Source: a virus
Reading direction: 5' to 3' (one strand)
IMG/VR virus record: IMGVR_UViG_3300027028_000035
Coordinates: 1 to 56,170 of that record
Length of the DNA stretch: 56,170 nt
Of this stretch, positions 2,420-56,170 are shown one piece after another. The position numbers and the translations under genes are program-made. Below the pieces are notes generated by a model. The model was not told where the DNA came from and ran no database searches. It saw nothing but the letters and a program-made list of their open reading frames with translations. How positions within the stretch are numbered: position 1 is the stretch's first letter; every line of letters begins with the position of its first letter.

Positions 2420-3976
2420 TTATTTAATGTCACCTGAAGCGAATTTCCCTTTGTATTTTATTGTCCCGTCACTATTATATAGTGTGCCTTTTCCATGAAA
2501 CTGATTACTTTTAAAATCACCTTCATATTTGATATTTCCATTATTAAAATATAACTTTCCTTCGCCGTGATAGCGATCCTTCTTTAGTTCGCCTTCATAC
2601 ATTAATACTCCCTGTCCATTATACTGTTTACCATCACCATTTAATTTTCCGTCTTTAAATTCGCCTATATCTCTAACACTTGCTTTTAAAATAGGCATGT
2701 CTGGAAAATAGTATAGTTCTTCTGATTTTTCAAACTTTTTCTCAAATGATTCTATTGCCAATTTATTTACTTTGTAATATTTCAATAAATTTGAAGGTTC
2801 ATCAGTAGAACTTTTCTCATCTATTAATGAGAGAATACCTTCACCATGATACTTTCCGTTCTTGAAGTATCCTTCGTAAACCGGGAAAACTAAGCCATAT
2901 TCATCTAAACCTCCATAATATCCAAAGACATCATTATAGTATTCAGAAGCTAACATAAACTCTGTTCCGTAGCCGTTGAACATCCCATCCTTAAAATCCC
3001 CAATGTAAAGAGGAACCATAACCTTGTTTAAAAAATTAGAGTACGAGTATGTATATAGTACTCCTTCTCCATGTGGCTTGTTATCGCGAGTTTCTCCATA
3101 ATAAATATAATTTTCATATTCTAAAGTTCGTTTATAGTATGGATCTCCAAATAGATTCCAGTACTTGTTTTCTGATTTTAGAAACATCCGTTCACCATTT
3201 GTAATTTTGGAAACTTTCGCTTCAGAGAATCTATCTTTATCAGATAAGAAAATATCTATGTTATTAAATAACTCTTTAACGTCATTCGCATAATTGCCTA
3301 ATTTGTTTATAACAGTACTACCTGTTGCTTCTTTTTCCTCGTTATTTTTATTGACGTCAGAATTTTTACTTTGGGCAGTAACAGTAACTACAGAATCTTT
3401 ATCGGTTTTTGGTTTAGAAGAACCAGGTTCACCTGTCTTTTTGTCTGATGTTTCCTTTATGTGTGACTGTTCTTTTTCTTTGGCTTGGGCCGATTCTGCA
3501 TCCTTTTTTTCTTTTTCTTTTTTCTCTTTCTCTCTCTTTGCAGCTACCTCTTTATTTTGTTTTTCTTTTTCGACTTTTGCTTTTTCTCGTTCAGATTCTC
3601 GTTGTACTATGTAATCTTCTGTATAGAACTTATCTAACATAAAATTTGAGAATCCGAAACAAATAAAAAGCATAATAATAGACAACGTCCACCCAATGAT
3701 TTTCAATGGCCAATTTTTGCTATTGATCAAAGGAAGTCTTCTTCTTATTGAGAGAAAATTAGTAATTAGTATAAAAGGAATCAATCCGAAGAAAACTATT
3801 AGACTTAGTGCGCCTAATAAGCTAATTACTGAGTCTTTAGTTAGGTTATCATCAATAAAGGTACCAAAGACCAGTATCGAAAGAATTAAAGCACCGACTA
3901 CATAGAATATTGATGCAATCACCTTCTTCCAAATAACTCCTGTTCTAAAACCTGGTATAATTGAACCTTTTTTCAT
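2420..3976 (-). CDS. Membrane-anchored MORN-repeat protein
   Basis: About 518 aa from the ATG at 3976, which has AAGGGAG nine bases upstream; the ORF opens eight codons earlier. Three N-terminal hydrophobic segments (about residues 15-45, 55-75 and 95-120) anchor it. Next comes a long Lys/Glu-rich coiled coil, then a Ser/Thr-rich linker. The C-terminal half has MORN repeats such as YIGDFKDGMFNGYGTEF, YEGYFKNGKYHGEGILSL and YEGELKKDRYHGEGKLYF, at least seven by eye. MORN repeats mediate membrane or protein contacts. It is AT-rich and monocistronic, so probably a lysogenic-conversion cargo gene. No enzymatic domain seen. Confidence 0.8.
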   Translation of the reverse strand: MKKGSIIPGFRTGVIWKKVIASIFYVVGALILSILVFGTFIDDNLTKDSVISLLGALSLIVFFGLIPFILITNFLSIRRRLPLINSKNWPLKIIGWTLSIIMLFICFGFSNFMLDKFYTEDYIVQRESEREKAKVEKEKQNKEVAAKREKEKKEKEKKDAESAQAKEKEQSHIKETSDKKTGEPGSSKPKTDKDSVVTVTAQSKNSDVNKNNEEKEATGSTVINKLGNYANDVKELFNNIDIFLSDKDRFSEAKVSKITNGERMFLKSENKYWNLFGDPYYKRTLEYENYIYYGETRDNKPHGEGVLYTYSYSNFLNKVMVPLYIGDFKDGMFNGYGTEFMLASEYYNDVFGYYGGLDEYGLVFPVYEGYFKNGKYHGEGILSLIDEKSSTDEPSNLLKYYKVNKLAIESFEKKFEKSEELYYFPDMPILKASVRDIGEFKDGKLNGDGKQYNGQGVLMYEGELKKDRYHGEGKLYFNNGNIKYEGDFKSNQFHGKGTLYNSDGTIKYKGKFASGDIK

Positions 3977-4053
3977 CAAAGACAACTCCCTTAATATCAT
4001 TTATAATTTTTTTTAATCACAAGTTTCATCTCTTTAAAACCACTAACATCTAC

Positions 4054-32451: not shown

Positions 32452-32485
32452 AAATAAAAAAACACCGACTCATTTAAGCGGTGTT
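32452..32485 (-). terminator. Terminator/attenuator after portal
   Basis: AACACCG-loop-CGGTGTT followed by T7 on the minus strand; the stem includes the portal stop codon. Confidence 0.75.
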
Positions 32486-33800
32486 AAGGTTCATCCTCTT
32501 CAATTGTATTTGGTGGAGGATCACTGGTGGTTTCTTTGGATTGCGGTTGTCCTCCAGCAGAGTCCTTCAGGTTCACTACTGTTGTTTTGCCTGGAACAAG
32601 CAATACTTCTCCGTGACCATTAGGCAATGCCTTTTTAGCTTGCTCATCACGAACCTCATCTGGTGTTATAACCCGTCGATCCAAATAAATCGCATCAATA
32701 TCTGCCTTGAGCTTTCGATCTTTCAAGGAAGTTTCATAATGGAATTTGAATTCAAGAACGCCACCCATACCAAAGATACCGTCAATAATATGATTATTTA
32801 TATGTTCGACAATATTCTCTGATATAGATTGGACGGTATCCTCAGTGTCTTCATCCTCGCTATCAGCGGTGCTTCTATTAACATCCTTGGTTTGTCCAAG
32901 CTTTTTGGGCGATATATCAAAGGAGATAGCCACGATTTCAATCAAGAAACGCTGCCATTCAAGGAACAAAGCTTTGTCATCAGTAGCTCCAAGATCATGA
33001 ACACTTGATTTCTCGCTTCCGATGATCGGGTCAATGCCTCTTCCCATGATTTCATTTTCCCAATAAGAACGAAATGCCTTTATTGCTTTAGCATCAAATT
33101 TGTCACCCAAATTAATAAGCTTCCGCCTGCCTGCATTTGAAGTTTGCTTGCCCGCTGATCGATGAGCTGAAATGAACATTTCAACGGACTCCCAAACTAT
33201 TTCAAGTGGAGAAAGACCAAATGGCGTATTGCTCCTTGGATTCATTCGTATATACATCAATTCAGAGGATTTCAGGTGAATATGCTGTCCGTTAACCCTC
33301 TGTGCATACCTGTATGAATTCGGTTTCCCATCCCATTCTGGATATAAGTCAACCGAAAATGAATCAACCGGATACATCCTGAACGGTCTGCGTGGATCTC
33401 CTGCCCGAAGAACCTCAGATGAACCAGCGCTACATACGAGCATATCTTCAACCAGTTGCTCAATCCATGAGCGAAACGAATCACCAGGATTGGGTTTTAA
33501 GAGAGATCTCTCGATAATTTTACATAATTCTTGATACTTCTCGCTCTCATTCTCATCGATCGTTGTCACAGACCAGTTCAGCTTTGTAATTCCGTTCTTG
33601 ATAACGTTGATTGCCCTTCTCGGAATAGGAGACTCAGACAATTTCCGCAAGTTTGTTGGAGTACGTTTAGGTGCTGGTTGGTTATTACCTTTGCGCATCA
33701 TTACTCCGTACGGAAAAGGATAACTCTCTGTCATTCGGTCAGGCTCATTCTTCGTCCTTCCTGCTTCAAGCCAGTTAACAAACCATGATCTTACCCCCAA
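32484..33800 (-). CDS. Portal protein
   Basis: A 438-aa protein. TTG start at 33800 is preferred because AAAGGAGGT lies six bases upstream; the ORF opens nine codons earlier across this site. Portal-family elements: SPIPRRAINVIKNGITKLNW near the start, PVDSFSVDLYPEWDGKPNSY, SNTPFGLSPLEIVWESVEMF, and a C-terminal helical wing with GILARDEQ-type residues. Forms the dodecameric DNA gate and docks the terminase. It is separated from terL by the caspase-like gene. Confidence 0.9.
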   Translation of the reverse strand: MGVRSWFVNWLEAGRTKNEPDRMTESYPFPYGVMMRKGNNQPAPKRTPTNLRKLSESPIPRRAINVIKNGITKLNWSVTTIDENESEKYQELCKIIERSLLKPNPGDSFRSWIEQLVEDMLVCSAGSSEVLRAGDPRRPFRMYPVDSFSVDLYPEWDGKPNSYRYAQRVNGQHIHLKSSELMYIRMNPRSNTPFGLSPLEIVWESVEMFISAHRSAGKQTSNAGRRKLINLGDKFDAKAIKAFRSYWENEIMGRGIDPIIGSEKSSVHDLGATDDKALFLEWQRFLIEIVAISFDISPKKLGQTKDVNRSTADSEDEDTEDTVQSISENIVEHINNHIIDGIFGMGGVLEFKFHYETSLKDRKLKADIDAIYLDRRVITPDEVRDEQAKKALPNGHGEVLLVPGKTTVVNLKDSAGGQPQSKETTSDPPPNTIEEDEP

Positions 33801-33828
33801 TCGCTTACCTCCTTTCTGACAAAACAAA

Positions 33829-33868
33829 AAGAAGGCAGGAAAAGTTTCCTTACCTTCTTTTTTTGGTC
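33829..33868. terminator. Terminator after the caspase-like gene, containing palindrome site 4
   Basis: AAGAAGG...CCTTCTT with inner AGGAAA-AG-TTTCCT (33837-33850) and T/A runs on both flanks. It separates the caspase gene from the portal gene and shares its core with the three other AGGAAA-NN-TTTCCT palindromes. Confidence 0.8.
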
Positions 33869-33941
33869 ATACTTCTATGGATTTATAATATCATTCAATT
33901 ATTGCGGAATTACTACGGATAAAATAGCACTAATTAGCCCA

Positions 33942-35654
33942 TTACCGCCAACGAAGACCTTCAATTAATTTGATGTACGAATCACTAACAATTTTAAATC
34001 TTTCATGAGAACCATTAAATAGTCCCGCCTTTAAAGGCGGCCATTCATCTTTTAGACGATACGCCTCATTTTTCAATTCAGTTATAGCACTCTCACTGTA
34101 ACCTGTATACTTCCAAGCAAACCTTCCAGGAGGACCCCACACACGCTCGCCTTCTTTATAATCGATATCTGCATAAACTAACGCATAAAAAACTTCGAAT
34201 TTATCAAATGTTTCTTCGTAACTTTTCCCCATGAAAAACAAGTCATCAATTACTGGTTGGATTTCTTTAAACAAATATTCACTTTTGGGTACATATTTTC
34301 GGTCATAATCAGGAAGTCTTCTAAAAATATCATCAATTTCTCGGGTTGGAGGAAATGCCTTAATAATTTCTTGAGCGTTACCATAACGTTCGTTTTTAAC
34401 TTTTGTTGTGAGTACAGTAGCAAGCATTCCATAATTCTCGGTAGCTAAGGCGCTGATTCCAGCAGTATACACCATTAGAATTAATGGGTACCACCTCAAG
34501 TTAAGCCACGGTACACTTCCCGACCCTATTTCATTGACTTCGGCCAGACGCGTGATAATTTTTTTAACAATAACTTCTTTTCTTTCTTCTCCCCAATAAG
34601 CAATAGATGCTATTACTGATTGAAGATTCTCACTGACGTCCTCATATTTTTTTAACCTTTCCAAGAGTTCATCCTGACTGAAATCTCCTTGTGTAGAGAA
34701 ATTCTCGCCGAGAAAGGAAATCAGTTGTCTCAACTGTTGATTGATTATGTCATCTAATTTAATGTGGTATCTATCTTCAGAAAGATATTCTTTGACTTTA
34801 TCTATAATCTCTTCTTTTGAGGAAGTATTCCGCTCTACTGTGGGCGGGATTATAATCATTTGATCAATATCTTTCTGATCATCTCTCAACGATGAAAGTA
34901 TAGGGGCCTTAAATATAAAGTCACCATCTCCATCGAAATATCCATAATGAGGGGTTTGGTTTGAATAGATGTCGTTGGAAACTTTCTGGTATACATATGA
35001 CATTAGTCCGTTCGCAGTTATTGTACCATCACTTTGAGCTGCCTCTCCTTTTAGCCCCTGTAAGAAGTGTCCTGTAAATATTGAATGGTTAGGGAGTGGT
35101 CCTCCTGCATCAGATACAACTTCATCTGCCTTACCAGCAGTTAAGACTTGTCTTGTATATCTTTTAAGCATGTCTTTTAAAAAACGAGCGCTTCCCGGCT
35201 GAAGGGACCTGGTTATTGCAAGGCCTCCATAACATGCATCCATTACAAATAAAATATGTTTTGCATTGAATAAATCTGAATTTCGAGTAAGCTCGTCCCA
35301 TCGTATAAATGTGGAAATATCATCAAGGGTACCATCCACAGGTATCAAGAATCCTATTTCTCCTCTTGTACCTGAAATAGTATGACCATGACCAGCGTAA
35401 AAAACAAAAATTTTGTCATCAGGATCTGTGTTAAAAAATCTCATAAAACTCTTCATGATGTTGGCTTTTGTAGCATCCTGATCAAGCAAGACTGTTACAT
35501 TTTCTTGCAGGAAATCAAATTCTTCTACTAAGGTTGAAGCAACCTCTTCCGCATCACTGCAAGCATAGGACAACGGGCTTACGTGTTGATAATCATTTAT
35601 CCCAATTACTAATGCAAAGTTATTCTTATATTCTGAACTAAAAGTTGTAGACAC
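33942..35654 (-). CDS. Caspase-like (C14) cysteine protease cargo gene
   Basis: About 570 aa. I choose the GTG at 35654 (GGCGGG upstream); the ORF reaches 35780 inside terL. Residues 10-265 form a caspase/metacaspase domain: NFALVIGINDYQHVSPL, catalytic His89 in FYAGHGHT, and catalytic Cys141 in VMDACYGG. About 300 further residues follow with helices and WYPLILMVYTAGISALATEN and FDKFEVFYALVYADI, which I do not recognise firmly; it resembles sensor modules at the C-termini of predicted defence proteins. It is AT-richer than terL (one sampled 60-base line each: 28% against 50% GC) and has its own terminator. A capsid-assembly role is unlikely; anti-phage cell-death protease is my inference. 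Confidence 0.88.
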   Translation of the reverse strand: MSTTFSSEYKNNFALVIGINDYQHVSPLSYACSDAEEVASTLVEEFDFLQENVTVLLDQDATKANIMKSFMRFFNTDPDDKIFVFYAGHGHTISGTRGEIGFLIPVDGTLDDISTFIRWDELTRNSDLFNAKHILFVMDACYGGLAITRSLQPGSARFLKDMLKRYTRQVLTAGKADEVVSDAGGPLPNHSIFTGHFLQGLKGEAAQSDGTITANGLMSYVYQKVSNDIYSNQTPHYGYFDGDGDFIFKAPILSSLRDDQKDIDQMIIIPPTVERNTSSKEEIIDKVKEYLSEDRYHIKLDDIINQQLRQLISFLGENFSTQGDFSQDELLERLKKYEDVSENLQSVIASIAYWGEERKEVIVKKIITRLAEVNEIGSGSVPWLNLRWYPLILMVYTAGISALATENYGMLATVLTTKVKNERYGNAQEIIKAFPPTREIDDIFRRLPDYDRKYVPKSEYLFKEIQPVIDDLFFMGKSYEETFDKFEVFYALVYADIDYKEGERVWGPPGRFAWKYTGYSESAITELKNEAYRLKDEWPPLKAGLFNGSHERFKIVSDSYIKLIEGLRWR

Positions 35655-35739: not shown

Positions 35740-37161
35740 TTAGCCGAATGCAAACCCTGTATCTGTTTCAATCTCCGCAAAAGCTAGTACAAAGGCATCT
35801 GCCCTATCTGGAGATTGAAGACCTCTTTTTTTCATGTCTTCTTTCTTTTCAAGATAGATTCTTCCGTTACTGCCCATCCTCCATTTACGGGATGTCAGTT
35901 GTGTTACCAACTTCTCGTCAGCAGGAAGTTCAAGGACTCCTGGAACTCCCAGCATATAATTGCTCATGTTCTCTTCAAGTAAAGCTTTAATATGTCCCCA
36001 CATCTCGGAACCAAGATTTCCATAATGCGTATCTTCTGCCGACGAACCATTGTTAACGCCGATGATAGTGTATCCGAGCCCCTTCTCATCATTGATCTCA
36101 TTCAGTCGATCCGTCACACCTCCACCTACGCCGCTATCATCGACTCTAATTTCCACTTCATCCACTTCTGTATGCTCTGACTTGATATCATCAACGATCC
36201 GTAATACCCAGCCAGTAGTAGTCATAGTATCCTGCTTATGGTGGAAGTGGCTCTTCACTACCTTCCCGCCAATCTGTCCGTATATGGTAGTTTCATCGTC
36301 ACCAAAACGAGCCACGTCCACGCCAACAGTGAGTTTGTGTCCATTAGATACAATTCGAACTTCATTCTTGGCAAACTCAGCCGCCTCTAACGCGATGAAT
36401 GTGTCCGACTCTCCACGAGGGAATTCTCCTTCAACCCGGACACGCCATACATCAGATCCCTTACCATATTTACGTTCAAGCATAGCTATGTTCTCTTTAC
36501 TTGTCCGAGGACTGTTCAGACATGAAACTTTGTGCGTATTATAATCTGCCCGGTCCCTGTTGTGTGAATCATAAAACACACCGCTGGTCCGAGTCGGGTT
36601 TCCACACATGAGCAACTTGTTGAATTCGCCTGAGAGTGTACCCAGGATCGCTTCCATGATCCGATCCTCAACCCCGGAAGCTTCGTCCACAATGAAAAGC
36701 ATGTAGTCTTCATGGAAACCCTGCATGTTCTCGGGCTTGGTAGCTGTCCGGGCTGTAGCAAACCAGCGTTCCTCGTAATTTCTCATATAAATCTTCGTTT
36801 TGGTCCATTTAAGAATTTTCTTGAGTAGTGGGCTTTTCTCTTGCCATTTGCTAATCTCAGCCCACAAGACATCGTGCAATTGTTGACGAGTGGGTGCTGT
36901 ACAGATAACCTTCGGAAACGGGAAACACGAAAGGAACCAAAGTGCTACCGCAGCCTCAAGCCCAGTCTTACCAACACCTTGACCGGATCGTACAGACACT
37001 CTCGGATTTCCTGCTATGTCCATCAAAACATCTGCTTGCCACTCGTCAGGAGTGAATTTCAGTAGCTCCACGCAAAAAAGCACCGGGTTCTTCCGGTACT
37101 CAGGGATTCGCTTTTTGAATGCAGCAAAGCGGCGTTTCGTTTGAGGAGACTCTTTATTCAC
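35740..37161 (-). CDS. terL: Terminase large subunit
   Basis: A 473-aa packaging motor. ATPase: Walker A SGQGVGKT (59-66) and Walker B MLFIVDEAS (154-162). Nuclease: GVDVARFGDDET (Asp282), DDSGVGGG, and a final acidic SPDRADAFVLA. It cuts concatemeric DNA and pumps it through the portal. Overlaps the small-subunit gene by 8 bp. The following gene is not portal, as expected in such operons, but the caspase-like gene. Confidence 0.96.
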   Translation of the reverse strand: MNKESPQTKRRFAAFKKRIPEYRKNPVLFCVELLKFTPDEWQADVLMDIAGNPRVSVRSGQGVGKTGLEAAVALWFLSCFPFPKVICTAPTRQQLHDVLWAEISKWQEKSPLLKKILKWTKTKIYMRNYEERWFATARTATKPENMQGFHEDYMLFIVDEASGVEDRIMEAILGTLSGEFNKLLMCGNPTRTSGVFYDSHNRDRADYNTHKVSCLNSPRTSKENIAMLERKYGKGSDVWRVRVEGEFPRGESDTFIALEAAEFAKNEVRIVSNGHKLTVGVDVARFGDDETTIYGQIGGKVVKSHFHHKQDTMTTTGWVLRIVDDIKSEHTEVDEVEIRVDDSGVGGGVTDRLNEINDEKGLGYTIIGVNNGSSAEDTHYGNLGSEMWGHIKALLEENMSNYMLGVPGVLELPADEKLVTQLTSRKWRMGSNGRIYLEKKEDMKKRGLQSPDRADAFVLAFAEIETDTGFAFG

Positions 37162-37882
37162 CAGACTCCACCGCCTTTACCCAATCTTCGATCAGATCAT
37201 CTTCGGTATCTCCATCGCCGTTCTTAAGTTTCTCAATCTCAAGGCGGGTTTTATCAACTTTGGCCTGCATCTGATCCAGTTTCAATCTTCGCTCATCTTC
37301 CTGCGGCGCGATATCAAGGAATTGTTTGATAGCTCCCCTGATCTCACGCATGACCGTAGCCTCTGCCTTGATGAAACTAGCGTATTTATCCCAAGCGAAT
37401 TGAATTTCCCATTCGTATTCATCTCCATACTCACCTGGTTTCTCCCTTTTTAACTCTTTGGTCATATCCTCTTTGTCTTTGATGAAGAAGATACACTGCG
37501 CCCAAATGATTTTACGGAATCCCTGGGTGATGTTATGCCAGATCATATCTATCGGTTCCATTTGCTGCACTATATCAATGAGTTCAAGGTATTCAGCGTC
37601 TTGTGGCTCAAATTTACGGAATAGACCATGCGTGACAGCTTTCTGATTGCCGAGTGGACCTCCTTTTCCACCTCGATTACCTTTGGCGTTCTGATTGCCA
37701 CGAGGAGCACCGGGTTTAGCATTCCCCATCTTTCCTTCCCATTGATCAAGTGACTTCCACTTCCGGACTGACTCAGATGTGATGCCCAACTTTTCCGCAA
37801 TCTCTTTCGGCTTCATCACAGCGCCACTATCTTTCCAAATTTTGAACGCCTTCTTACGATTCGGATTCTGCTTCCTGCTCAC
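37154..37882 (-). CDS. terS: Terminase small subunit
   Basis: A 242-aa protein. An N-terminal helix-turn-helix (PKEIAEKLGITSESVRKWKS) for DNA recognition is followed by a Gly/Asn/Lys-rich region (APRGNQNAKGNRGGKGGP), typical of PBSX-like TerS, a helical oligomerisation domain and an acidic C-terminal tail. Binds the packaging site and presents DNA to TerL. Confidence 0.92.
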   Translation of the reverse strand: MSRKQNPNRKKAFKIWKDSGAVMKPKEIAEKLGITSESVRKWKSLDQWEGKMGNAKPGAPRGNQNAKGNRGGKGGPLGNQKAVTHGLFRKFEPQDAEYLELIDIVQQMEPIDMIWHNITQGFRKIIWAQCIFFIKDKEDMTKELKREKPGEYGDEYEWEIQFAWDKYASFIKAEATVMREIRGAIKQFLDIAPQEDERRLKLDQMQAKVDKTRLEIEKLKNGDGDTEDDLIEDWVKAVESGE

Positions 37883-38145: not shown

Positions 38146-38706
38146 TTATCTCAACTTAAGAATTGCTCTGTCCATCATGTCCTGAGTAAGTCCGATATAG
38201 TCCAGTGTCTCCCTTGGATCGCTGTGTCCGAACATCTCCATTAGTAACGCTAAATTCTCTGGATCGTCCATATAAAGGCGGTATGCCCAGGTCTTCCGCA
38301 GCGAGTGAACGCCGATGTCTTTCAATCTAAATTCACGAGCTGCTTCACTCAGAAAACGATATGCTGTCGTTCGGTCAATCGGCTGTTTCCGCATTCGACT
38401 TACTTTTTTTACTTGGCGGCTTGGAAATAGACAATCATTCGGGAACATGTCCGCAGTGTACTCATCGATATCTGATCGAATACTCGGATGAATTATAAAT
38501 GTTTTGGCATGCTTGTTCTTTTGCTCGACCATGCTGATGTGTGTACCTTTAGTTTGCCACACCCTAAGACTTAGCAAGTCAGAAACACGAAGTCCGCTGT
38601 ATATACCCATACAAAAAAATAAATAATTGCGCATGCTTCGTATATAGAAGTATTCCTTCATTCCATCTATAACCCGTTCATCACGGATCGGCTGTACCTT
38701 TCTCAT
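38146..38706 (-). CDS. Small tyrosine recombinase beside terS
   Basis: A 186-aa, catalytic domain only. GIYSGLRVSDLLSLR holds the first catalytic Arg, VHSLRKTWAYRL the HxxR pair, MFGHSDPRETLDYIG the second His and the Tyr. There is no arm or core-binding domain, so it is unlikely to be the prophage integrase. Such small XerC/D-like proteins upstream of terS are common in Bacillales prophages and may resolve phage genome multimers or act at packaging. Start overlaps the upstream Cys-rich gene by 4 bp. Confidence 0.9.
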   Translation of the reverse strand: MRKVQPIRDERVIDGMKEYFYIRSMRNYLFFCMGIYSGLRVSDLLSLRVWQTKGTHISMVEQKNKHAKTFIIHPSIRSDIDEYTADMFPNDCLFPSRQVKKVSRMRKQPIDRTTAYRFLSEAAREFRLKDIGVHSLRKTWAYRLYMDDPENLALLMEMFGHSDPRETLDYIGLTQDMMDRAILKLR

Positions 38707-38918: not shown

Positions 38919-39045
38919 TCATTTACGTTATTATATGGATTTAAGATAACATGCTTTTGATTCGCATTTACTGCGAATTTTGGGTTAATAATTGTCGTAG
39001 GACCTATTGTATTTTCAAGTTATTTTGAATACTGTATCTGATATA

Positions 39046-54960: not shown

Positions 54961-55036
54961 TCTTGCGCTTCCACCGTTGCAAGACGGTTTAACATACACA
55001 AAAACAGAACATATGTTCTTTATGGGAGGTTTTTAT

Positions 55037-56170
55037 TTGGCTAGCTATAAAAAACATGGGACTGGATGGGAGTATCGACTAAGGTACAAGGACCCTTTCA
55101 CACAGAAATTTCGAGAGAAGGCACAAAGAGGATTCGATTCAAAAAAAGAAGCGCAGTTGGCAGTTAGAGAATTTGAAAGAAAGCTTGCTGCTGGCTATGA
55201 ACAATCTGATTTATCGCTTCAAGATTATCTAGATTTTTGGATCAATGAATATAAGAAAGGAAGTGTCCGTAAGAATACATTATTACTTCATCAGAACAAC
55301 ATTAAAAATCATATTATCCCTTTTTTTAAAAACATGCTTATACGAGATGTGAAGCCAATTATGTACCAAAATTTTATAAACCATATTAGTGAGAAAGGAT
55401 ATAGCCGACGTACGGTTGAATTGATTCATTCCACAATGCATAATGCCTTACAAAAAGCTGTTATAATCGGAAAATTAGAAAAAAATCCATGTCTAGGTGT
55501 CGAAATAAAAATTAAGCGCAAAAAGAAGGAAGTACACTTTATTGATTCCGATGATATACCATTGTTTATGCAAAACTCTCGTCATTATGGTTATGTATAC
55601 TGGATATTTTTCCGAGTGTTAATTGAAACTGGTATGCGAAAAGGCGAAGCAGCTGCTCTAAAATGGATCGATATTGATTTGGATAATCATTTTATTACAA
55701 TTGATGAAACTCTAGATTTTACAGCAAAAAACAAAGAAGAATTATTCGGTGAGACCAAGACAGAAAAATCAGAAAGAAAAATAAAAATTACTACAAATCT
55801 AGTAAATGACATCAAATTTCACAGAGAGTGGCAGGAACATAACAAAGGGATACTTGGGGATAGATACCACCATGACCTTGATCTGGTTCTATGTAGGGAA
55901 GATGGAAACTTCATGCCTAAATCATCATTGTTCAATGCCTTCTCCCGCATCTTACAACGTTGTGATCTCCCATCCCTCCCCATTCACTCTCTCCGACATA
56001 CCTGCGCTGTTCTTTTACTTGAGTCCGGAGCAGATATGAAATTCGTTCAAGAACAATTAGGTCACGGGAGTATTCAGATCACATCAGATGTATATGCCCA
56101 CATCTCAGGCAAGATCCAGAAAAGCAATATAGATAGATTTGAGAAATTCACTGAAGAAATTTTCGAATAG
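55037..56170 (+). CDS. int: Tyrosine integrase of this prophage
   Basis: A 377-aa integrase. TTG at 55037 chosen by GGGAGG upstream and by its match to the left copy's start (MASFKK/MASYKK); the ORF opens 20 codons earlier. Catalytic residues: Arg201, Lys241, His317 and Arg320 (HSLRH), His343 (LGHG), Tyr353 (DVYAH). Arm-binding and core-binding domains as in the left copy. Third gene of the cI-immA-int operon at the right end. attR should follow immediately, beyond the window. Confidence 0.95.
   Translation: MASYKKHGTGWEYRLRYKDPFTQKFREKAQRGFDSKKEAQLAVREFERKLAAGYEQSDLSLQDYLDFWINEYKKGSVRKNTLLLHQNNIKNHIIPFFKNMLIRDVKPIMYQNFINHISEKGYSRRTVELIHSTMHNALQKAVIIGKLEKNPCLGVEIKIKRKKKEVHFIDSDDIPLFMQNSRHYGYVYWIFFRVLIETGMRKGEAAALKWIDIDLDNHFITIDETLDFTAKNKEELFGETKTEKSERKIKITTNLVNDIKFHREWQEHNKGILGDRYHHDLDLVLCREDGNFMPKSSLFNAFSRILQRCDLPSLPIHSLRHTCAVLLLESGADMKFVQEQLGHGSIQITSDVYAHISGKIQKSNIDRFEKFTEEIFE

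Follow-up and report, generated by a model that had tools for sequence, protein, structure and literature searches.

A caspase-type variant of the PDC-S65 architecture, probably a mobile anti-phage protease, carried as cargo between terL and portal in a Paenibacillus-type phage

In proteins of the PADLOC phage-defence candidate PDC-S65 (PDLC05061) the N-terminal part is a SIR2 domain, and no paper was found under the name PDC-S65. The caspase-like effector of another defence system, type IV Thoeris, was reportedly described by Rousset et al. in 2025. There, a TIR product activates the effector via N7-cADPR (cited in PMC12847820). The EACC1-caspases are two-gene conflict systems (PMC7159879). 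With regard to genomic location, the anti-phage hotspots of P2 and P4 hold exchangeable defence cargo in a fixed place beside the packaging genes of temperate phages (PMC9122126, PMC9519451), and hotspots of this general kind are already known. In Pseudomonas phage JBD26, the late operon encodes the 83-aa defence protein Tab between terS and terL, from a gene with a promoter of its own and an anti-Tab gene as partner (PMC10884400).

Here we describe a gene in which a caspase domain is joined to the C-terminal domain of PDC-S65, located between the genes for the terminase large subunit (terL) and the portal protein. The window, that is the whole stretch of DNA analysed, is one whole virus record of 56,170 bases, and the features of the locus and its immediate surroundings are as follows:

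32484..33800, (-) strand: portal protein, starting with TTG and bounding the cargo slot downstream (PHROGs/NCBIfam)
33942..35654, (-) strand: gene of the caspase-PDC-S65-type protein, 570 aa, GTG start
33963..34835, (-) strand: C-terminal domain, predicted sensor/regulatory part, residues 274-564, common to SIR2-type PDC-S65 proteins
34950..35618, (-) strand: caspase (Peptidase_C14) domain, residues 13-235, with the His89/Cys141 dyad
35740..37161, (-) strand: terminase large subunit, bounding the cargo slot upstream (PHROG matches)
37154..37882, (-) strand: terminase small subunit, terS (PHROG matches)

Elsewhere in the window, two integrases, 58% identical and in the same direction, lie at both ends of the record (1-1185 and 54977-56170, both (+)), perhaps belonging to two neighbouring integrated elements. 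Near the integrase end, a possible lysogenic conversion gene (2420-4000, (-)) encodes 526 aa that include MORN repeats and hydrophobic stretches.

The GTG start of the caspase gene is preceded by a plausible ribosome site, AAAGGCGGG, and is backed by a relative from a Paenibacillaceae genome (L159) that begins with the same first residue. A complete caspase domain with a partner region of about 300 residues had been proposed in the first-pass annotation of this DNA, and both parts of the proposal hold. A match to Pfam Peptidase_C14 spans residues 13-235 (E 1.6e-17, 64.4 bits against a cut-off of 21.4), with the catalytic dyad at the residues named then, His89 (in YAGHG) and Cys141 (in DACYGG), invariant across five full-length homologues; the partner is a C-terminal domain of ~290 aa that matches PDC-S65. 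A profile search of solved structures retrieved metacaspases (E 1e-10). The S1 pocket of metacaspases is lined by two aspartates, predicting cleavage after Arg/Lys. Asp34 and Asp139 of the window protein, likewise invariant in the five full-length homologues, are candidates for such an acidic S1 pocket, and since both are kept, the caspase is predicted to cleave after Arg/Lys as well. Among NCBIfam models, the one nearest to the caspase domain is caspase_w_EACC1 (E 5e-22), at a score of 78.5 bits that lies below the cut-off of 140. AlphaFold2 was run on two full-length sequences and gave a mean pLDDT of only 33.5.

The match of residues 274-564 to PDC-S65 (E 7e-52) extends over profile positions 298-586 of 592. 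Positions 1-297, which represent the SIR2 part, are unmatched in the window protein, where the caspase is found instead. Because the SIR2 part is absent, the protein is not a PDC-S65 member as defined; it is, as judged by sequence comparison, a caspase variant of the PDC-S65 architecture. Genome G595 matches the full length of the profile, including the SIR2 part, and the caspase-type genome G392 matches it at positions 302-585 only. BLASTP against SIR2 proteins aligned residues 276-569 at E-values of 1e-15 to 1e-19, with the N-terminal halves of the caspase protein and the SIR2 proteins remaining without a match, and hhalign against a SIR2-type PDC-S65 member gave 97.8% probability over the same C-terminal stretch only. 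In plasmid records, the C-terminal region matches 'SIR2 family proteins' at their own C-termini in Halobacterium, Bradyrhizobium, Streptomyces and a Paenibacillus plasmid (the SIR2 annotation was seen for three of these four), and the swap of SIR2 and caspase on one C-terminal domain is seen in bacteria and archaea. A search with the PDC-S65 profile across Bacillota returned few real members, most hits being short matches to SIR2 motifs, and a PDB search with the C-terminal profile returned nothing significant. Coupling of one C-terminal domain to two effectors is the pattern expected of a sensor or regulatory domain, and it is this SIR2/caspase swap that suggests such a role here.

A defence protease could also follow another logic and be switched on by a second messenger, or by a partner whose gene lies at another locus. 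The example is type IV Thoeris, for which an N7-cADPR-activated caspase-like effector is established (cited in PMC12847820). We consider such a mode quite unlikely here, since no TIR gene was found beside the caspase in the window or recognised near four relatives, and since the C-terminal domain is common to SIR2 proteins that occur as single genes.

Full-length relatives of the caspase protein (50-60% identity) were found in 2 out of 400 Paenibacillaceae genomes, and the L159 copy has an integrase-like ORF two genes away (by eye). A third Paenibacillaceae genome (L161, 8910-9887, (-)) has the C-terminal domain only, matched from residue 247 on and 74% identical; its ORF begins directly behind the caspase part, close to the contig end. 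A further full-length relative resides in a Pseudoalteromonas element, adjoining three recombinase-like genes (by eye), and a Mu-like phage contig (L002) carries a caspase relative that is 51% identical. Judged by this distribution, the caspase gene is mobile and present in unrelated mobile elements.

The late operon of the Mu-like phage has the caspase between a virion-morphogenesis (G-like) gene and a protease gene. In a sister phage (F 96%, G 98%, protease 98%), its place is taken by a methyltransferase and other genes, and the interval between the G-like and the protease gene measures 1.0-4.5 kb in all relatives found (L002/L164-L176). Some of these relatives carry PARIS AriA (1e-33) and AriB (8e-16), AbiTii (5e-36), a PD-T4-6-like kinase (2e-31) or a PDC-S42 gene there, which makes the interval an apparent second defence hotspot. 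With a copy in this defence-rich slot, the caspase gene has entered such slots in two unrelated phage groups.

For the first of the two slots, TerL and portal relatives were gathered from viral contigs and from named genomes of Paenibacillus, Cohnella and one unclassified Bacilli MAG. The first-pass annotation had described terL and portal as almost always adjacent and had proposed a survey of the interval for other cargo. Such cargo was found, and the adjacency does not apply to this lineage: of 42 distinct Paenibacillus/Cohnella-type phages (the window counted in), 36 have an interval of at least 300 bp and 6 one of at most 121 bp. The inserts are 0.5-3.7 kb long, AT-rich and nearly all different, and their GC content is below that of the flanks in every case (36/36), by a mean of 9 points. 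The caspase insert itself had been called AT-richer than its neighbours, which is correct in direction, but the figures given (28% versus 50% GC) were wrong, the values being 36.8% for the insert and 44.7% for the flanks. In a control count, gaps of at least 300 bp were present at 23/28 terL-portal junctions, compared with 0/19 between terS and terL, 0/39 and 0/21 at capsid-gene junctions, and 6/40 between portal and the next gene. Cargo is still present in some phages whose terL was swapped for another type. Separately, gaps of 0.7-1.2 kb after portal in five phages (L021, L029, L103, L106 and L133) suggest a second, less used cargo slot.

In the window, no further gene-sized ORF accompanies the caspase between terL and portal. 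The nearest relative (L003; terL 96%, portal 94%) has Mrr and PIN genes at the caspase's place, and the caspase had no match in the relatives tested by tblastn or, by ORF clustering, in the other slots. These searches bear on a possibility raised earlier, that related phages carry the gene as a morphogenesis factor, which was not what we found. Nor did Pfam and PHROGs searches of the C-terminal half, which might have proved to be a capsid or scaffold fold, find any such family, and a defence family was matched instead. A protease gene standing directly before portal does bring to mind a head-maturation enzyme that replaces or assists the prohead protease. However, the gene is not kept in related phages (no caspase match in the relatives tested), the genes after portal are collinear in relatives without it, and the C-terminal domain matches neither a capsid nor a scaffold family, and we therefore hold this explanation to be extremely improbable.

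Forty occupied slots, including four from phages whose portal is of another type, contribute proteins of at least 120 aa that cluster into 47 families. Known defence genes are found in many of the scanned cargos, as judged by the matches seen and not by an enrichment statistic. PD-T7-4 (E 7e-83) is present in three phages at E ~1e-82 (two scanned, one by clustering) and more weakly in a fourth, and other cargos contain ThsB (E 4e-74), a CAP12/Pycsar-type TIR (E 3e-31), AbiJ_NTD4 (E 1.5e-17), DUF4062 (E 4e-23), an Mrr endonuclease (E 2e-10) together with PIN, a TIR-like gene and a TRADD-N-associated membrane domain. DUF4062 proteins are portal-binding NADases in a recent report (PMC13174449). 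Cargo that is not defence-like also occurs, namely metallophosphoesterase, SprT-like and tail-like genes. One cargo family without a Pfam or PADLOC match (L005 10258-11046, L117 3005-3793) looks nucleotide cyclase-like by eye (FLDILGFKELV...RGGISTGDISV).

The boundary between cargo and portal has features of its own, which recur in part upstream of terS:

33826..33862, (-) strand: terminator-type hairpin plus T-run, separating cargo from portal (-21.5 kcal/mol, z -3.6)
33868..33920, (-) strand: late-promoter-like element at the cargo/portal boundary (nhmmer E 4e-12)
38146..38706, (-) strand: 186-aa tyrosine recombinase-like gene, which precedes terS in relatives
38934..38980, (-) strand: second late-promoter-like copy, 228 nt before the small recombinase/terS, with the palindrome TTCGCA-GTAAA-TGCGAA and TATAAT

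An element of ~55 bp is conserved immediately 5' of portal behind unrelated cargos and is absent from the empty slots of L017, L030, L031 and L104. Weaker copies precede the small recombinase upstream of terS in several phages including the window, mostly by 220-233 nt and once by 117 nt, always in late-gene direction and with a TATAAT-like box in several. Most copies of either kind have a hairpin with T-run and a ribosome site behind them. The recombinase-like gene itself keeps a near-constant distance of ~263 bp to terS in relatives. The boundary element is best read as the duplicate of a late promoter, placed at the slot, that would restart the late operon downstream of the cargo. Two element copies flank two successive ORFs in L011 and L099, and these tandem ORF-element-ORF-element arrays, the presence of the element behind unrelated cargos and a recombinase gene usually nearby could together point to an integron-like cassette recombination site, on which the small recombinase before terS would act and by which the slot would have been built. 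We ranked this below the late promoter and regard it as very unlikely: copies also stand 220-233 nt before the start of the late operon with a -10-like box and always in late-gene direction, recombination between the sites would remove terS and terL, and the same pattern is accounted for by homologous recombination at a late promoter.

The caspase gene had also been credited with a terminator of its own. The hairpin is real by its z-score, but it is kept behind unrelated cargos and is thus a property of the slot, not of the caspase gene alone. Upstream of the caspase gene, no sigma-A promoter candidate was better than shuffles. As no promoter for expression in the lysogen was recognised, transcription with the late genes is possible instead. 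This, and the location of the gene inside the late operon, co-directional with terL and 85 nt behind it, would fit a protease serving the phage's own lytic cycle, expressed late with terL and cleaving host proteins or timing lysis, with no part in defence of the lysogen. Such a role is unlikely in our opinion, because the caspase is missing in other phages examined with the same late operon, unrelated defence genes take its place, and its homologues also occur outside phages and with the SIR2-linked domain.

We suggest as the likely explanation that the caspase gene encodes a mobile, single-gene anti-phage protease of the abortive-infection type, which a temperate Paenibacillus-type phage carries in a defence slot as cargo. 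Since sister phages keep other anti-virus genes in the slot, the caspase is probably cargo protecting the host cell from competing phages. An acquired cargo with a probable antiviral role had been the first-pass proposal, and it gains support from the hotspot survey, the PDC-S65 match, the SIR2/caspase swap and the Mu-like copy in a defence-rich slot. The C-terminal domain would sense an incoming phage infection, with the caspase held inactive until then; once released, the caspase would cleave host or phage proteins, probably after Arg/Lys, and infection would be stopped by killing or arresting the cell. In the sister architecture, SIR2 would do the same via NAD+ depletion. The late-promoter-like copy behind the cargo would restart the late operon at portal, making a terminator-bearing cargo tolerable inside the operon.

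No self-immunity gene was recognised in the window. Between cargo and portal, four phages (L004 10021-10236, L008 12683-13105, L010 10387-10653, L011 10226-10492) have a small ORF ending ...YVDAYACVQAKIRSK, behind its own element copy and with different cargos upstream among phages; this ORF could be late-expressed, for self-protection or another function.

A broader picture, which we regard as evenly balanced between right and wrong, is that a single-gene caspase immunity arose when the SIR2 effector gave way to a caspase on the same PDC-S65 sensor and that it travels among unrelated temperate phages via dedicated late-operon defence slots, and that the duplicated late promoter insulates the cargo of the Paenibacillus slot, so that any defence gene would be portable between terL and portal without halting late transcription. 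The open-licence papers searched contained no description of the terL-portal slot, the SIR2/caspase swap or the boundary element. With a sensor-like domain that drives SIR2 elsewhere coupled to a caspase in one gene, the same trigger could be tested with two killing enzymes. The two fixed late-operon slots, terL-portal in Paenibacillaceae phages and G-like to protease gene in Mu-like phages, offer a compact source of defence candidates in their unannotated cargo, and the late-promoter-like copy at the cargo/portal boundary offers an idea of how phages may tolerate inserts.

The window protein resembles PDC-S65 over the whole length of its C-terminal ~290 residues (E 7e-52), in its total size (~570-590 aa), in being encoded by one gene and in its mobile, defence-like settings; it differs in having a caspase where PDC-S65 has a SIR2 NADase, with the caspase form found in prophage late operons. 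It shares with type IV Thoeris a caspase-like protease proposed to halt infection through protein degradation (cited in PMC12847820), whereas the defining TIR partner of Thoeris was found neither by the window gene, whose neighbours are terL and portal, nor near four relatives. Its caspase domain is closest to caspase_w_EACC1, but the score is below the cut-off for that family and no EACC1 gene adjoins it. Unlike in the bacterial gasdermin system, its immediate neighbours, terL and portal, include no gasdermin gene. Tab is a precedent for the window caspase as a defence gene in a late operon by the terminase genes, although the two proteins are unrelated. As in the P2/P4 hotspots, exchangeable defence cargo lies next to packaging genes, but here it does so in Paenibacillaceae phages, at the terL-portal junction and with a duplicated late-promoter-like element at the boundary.
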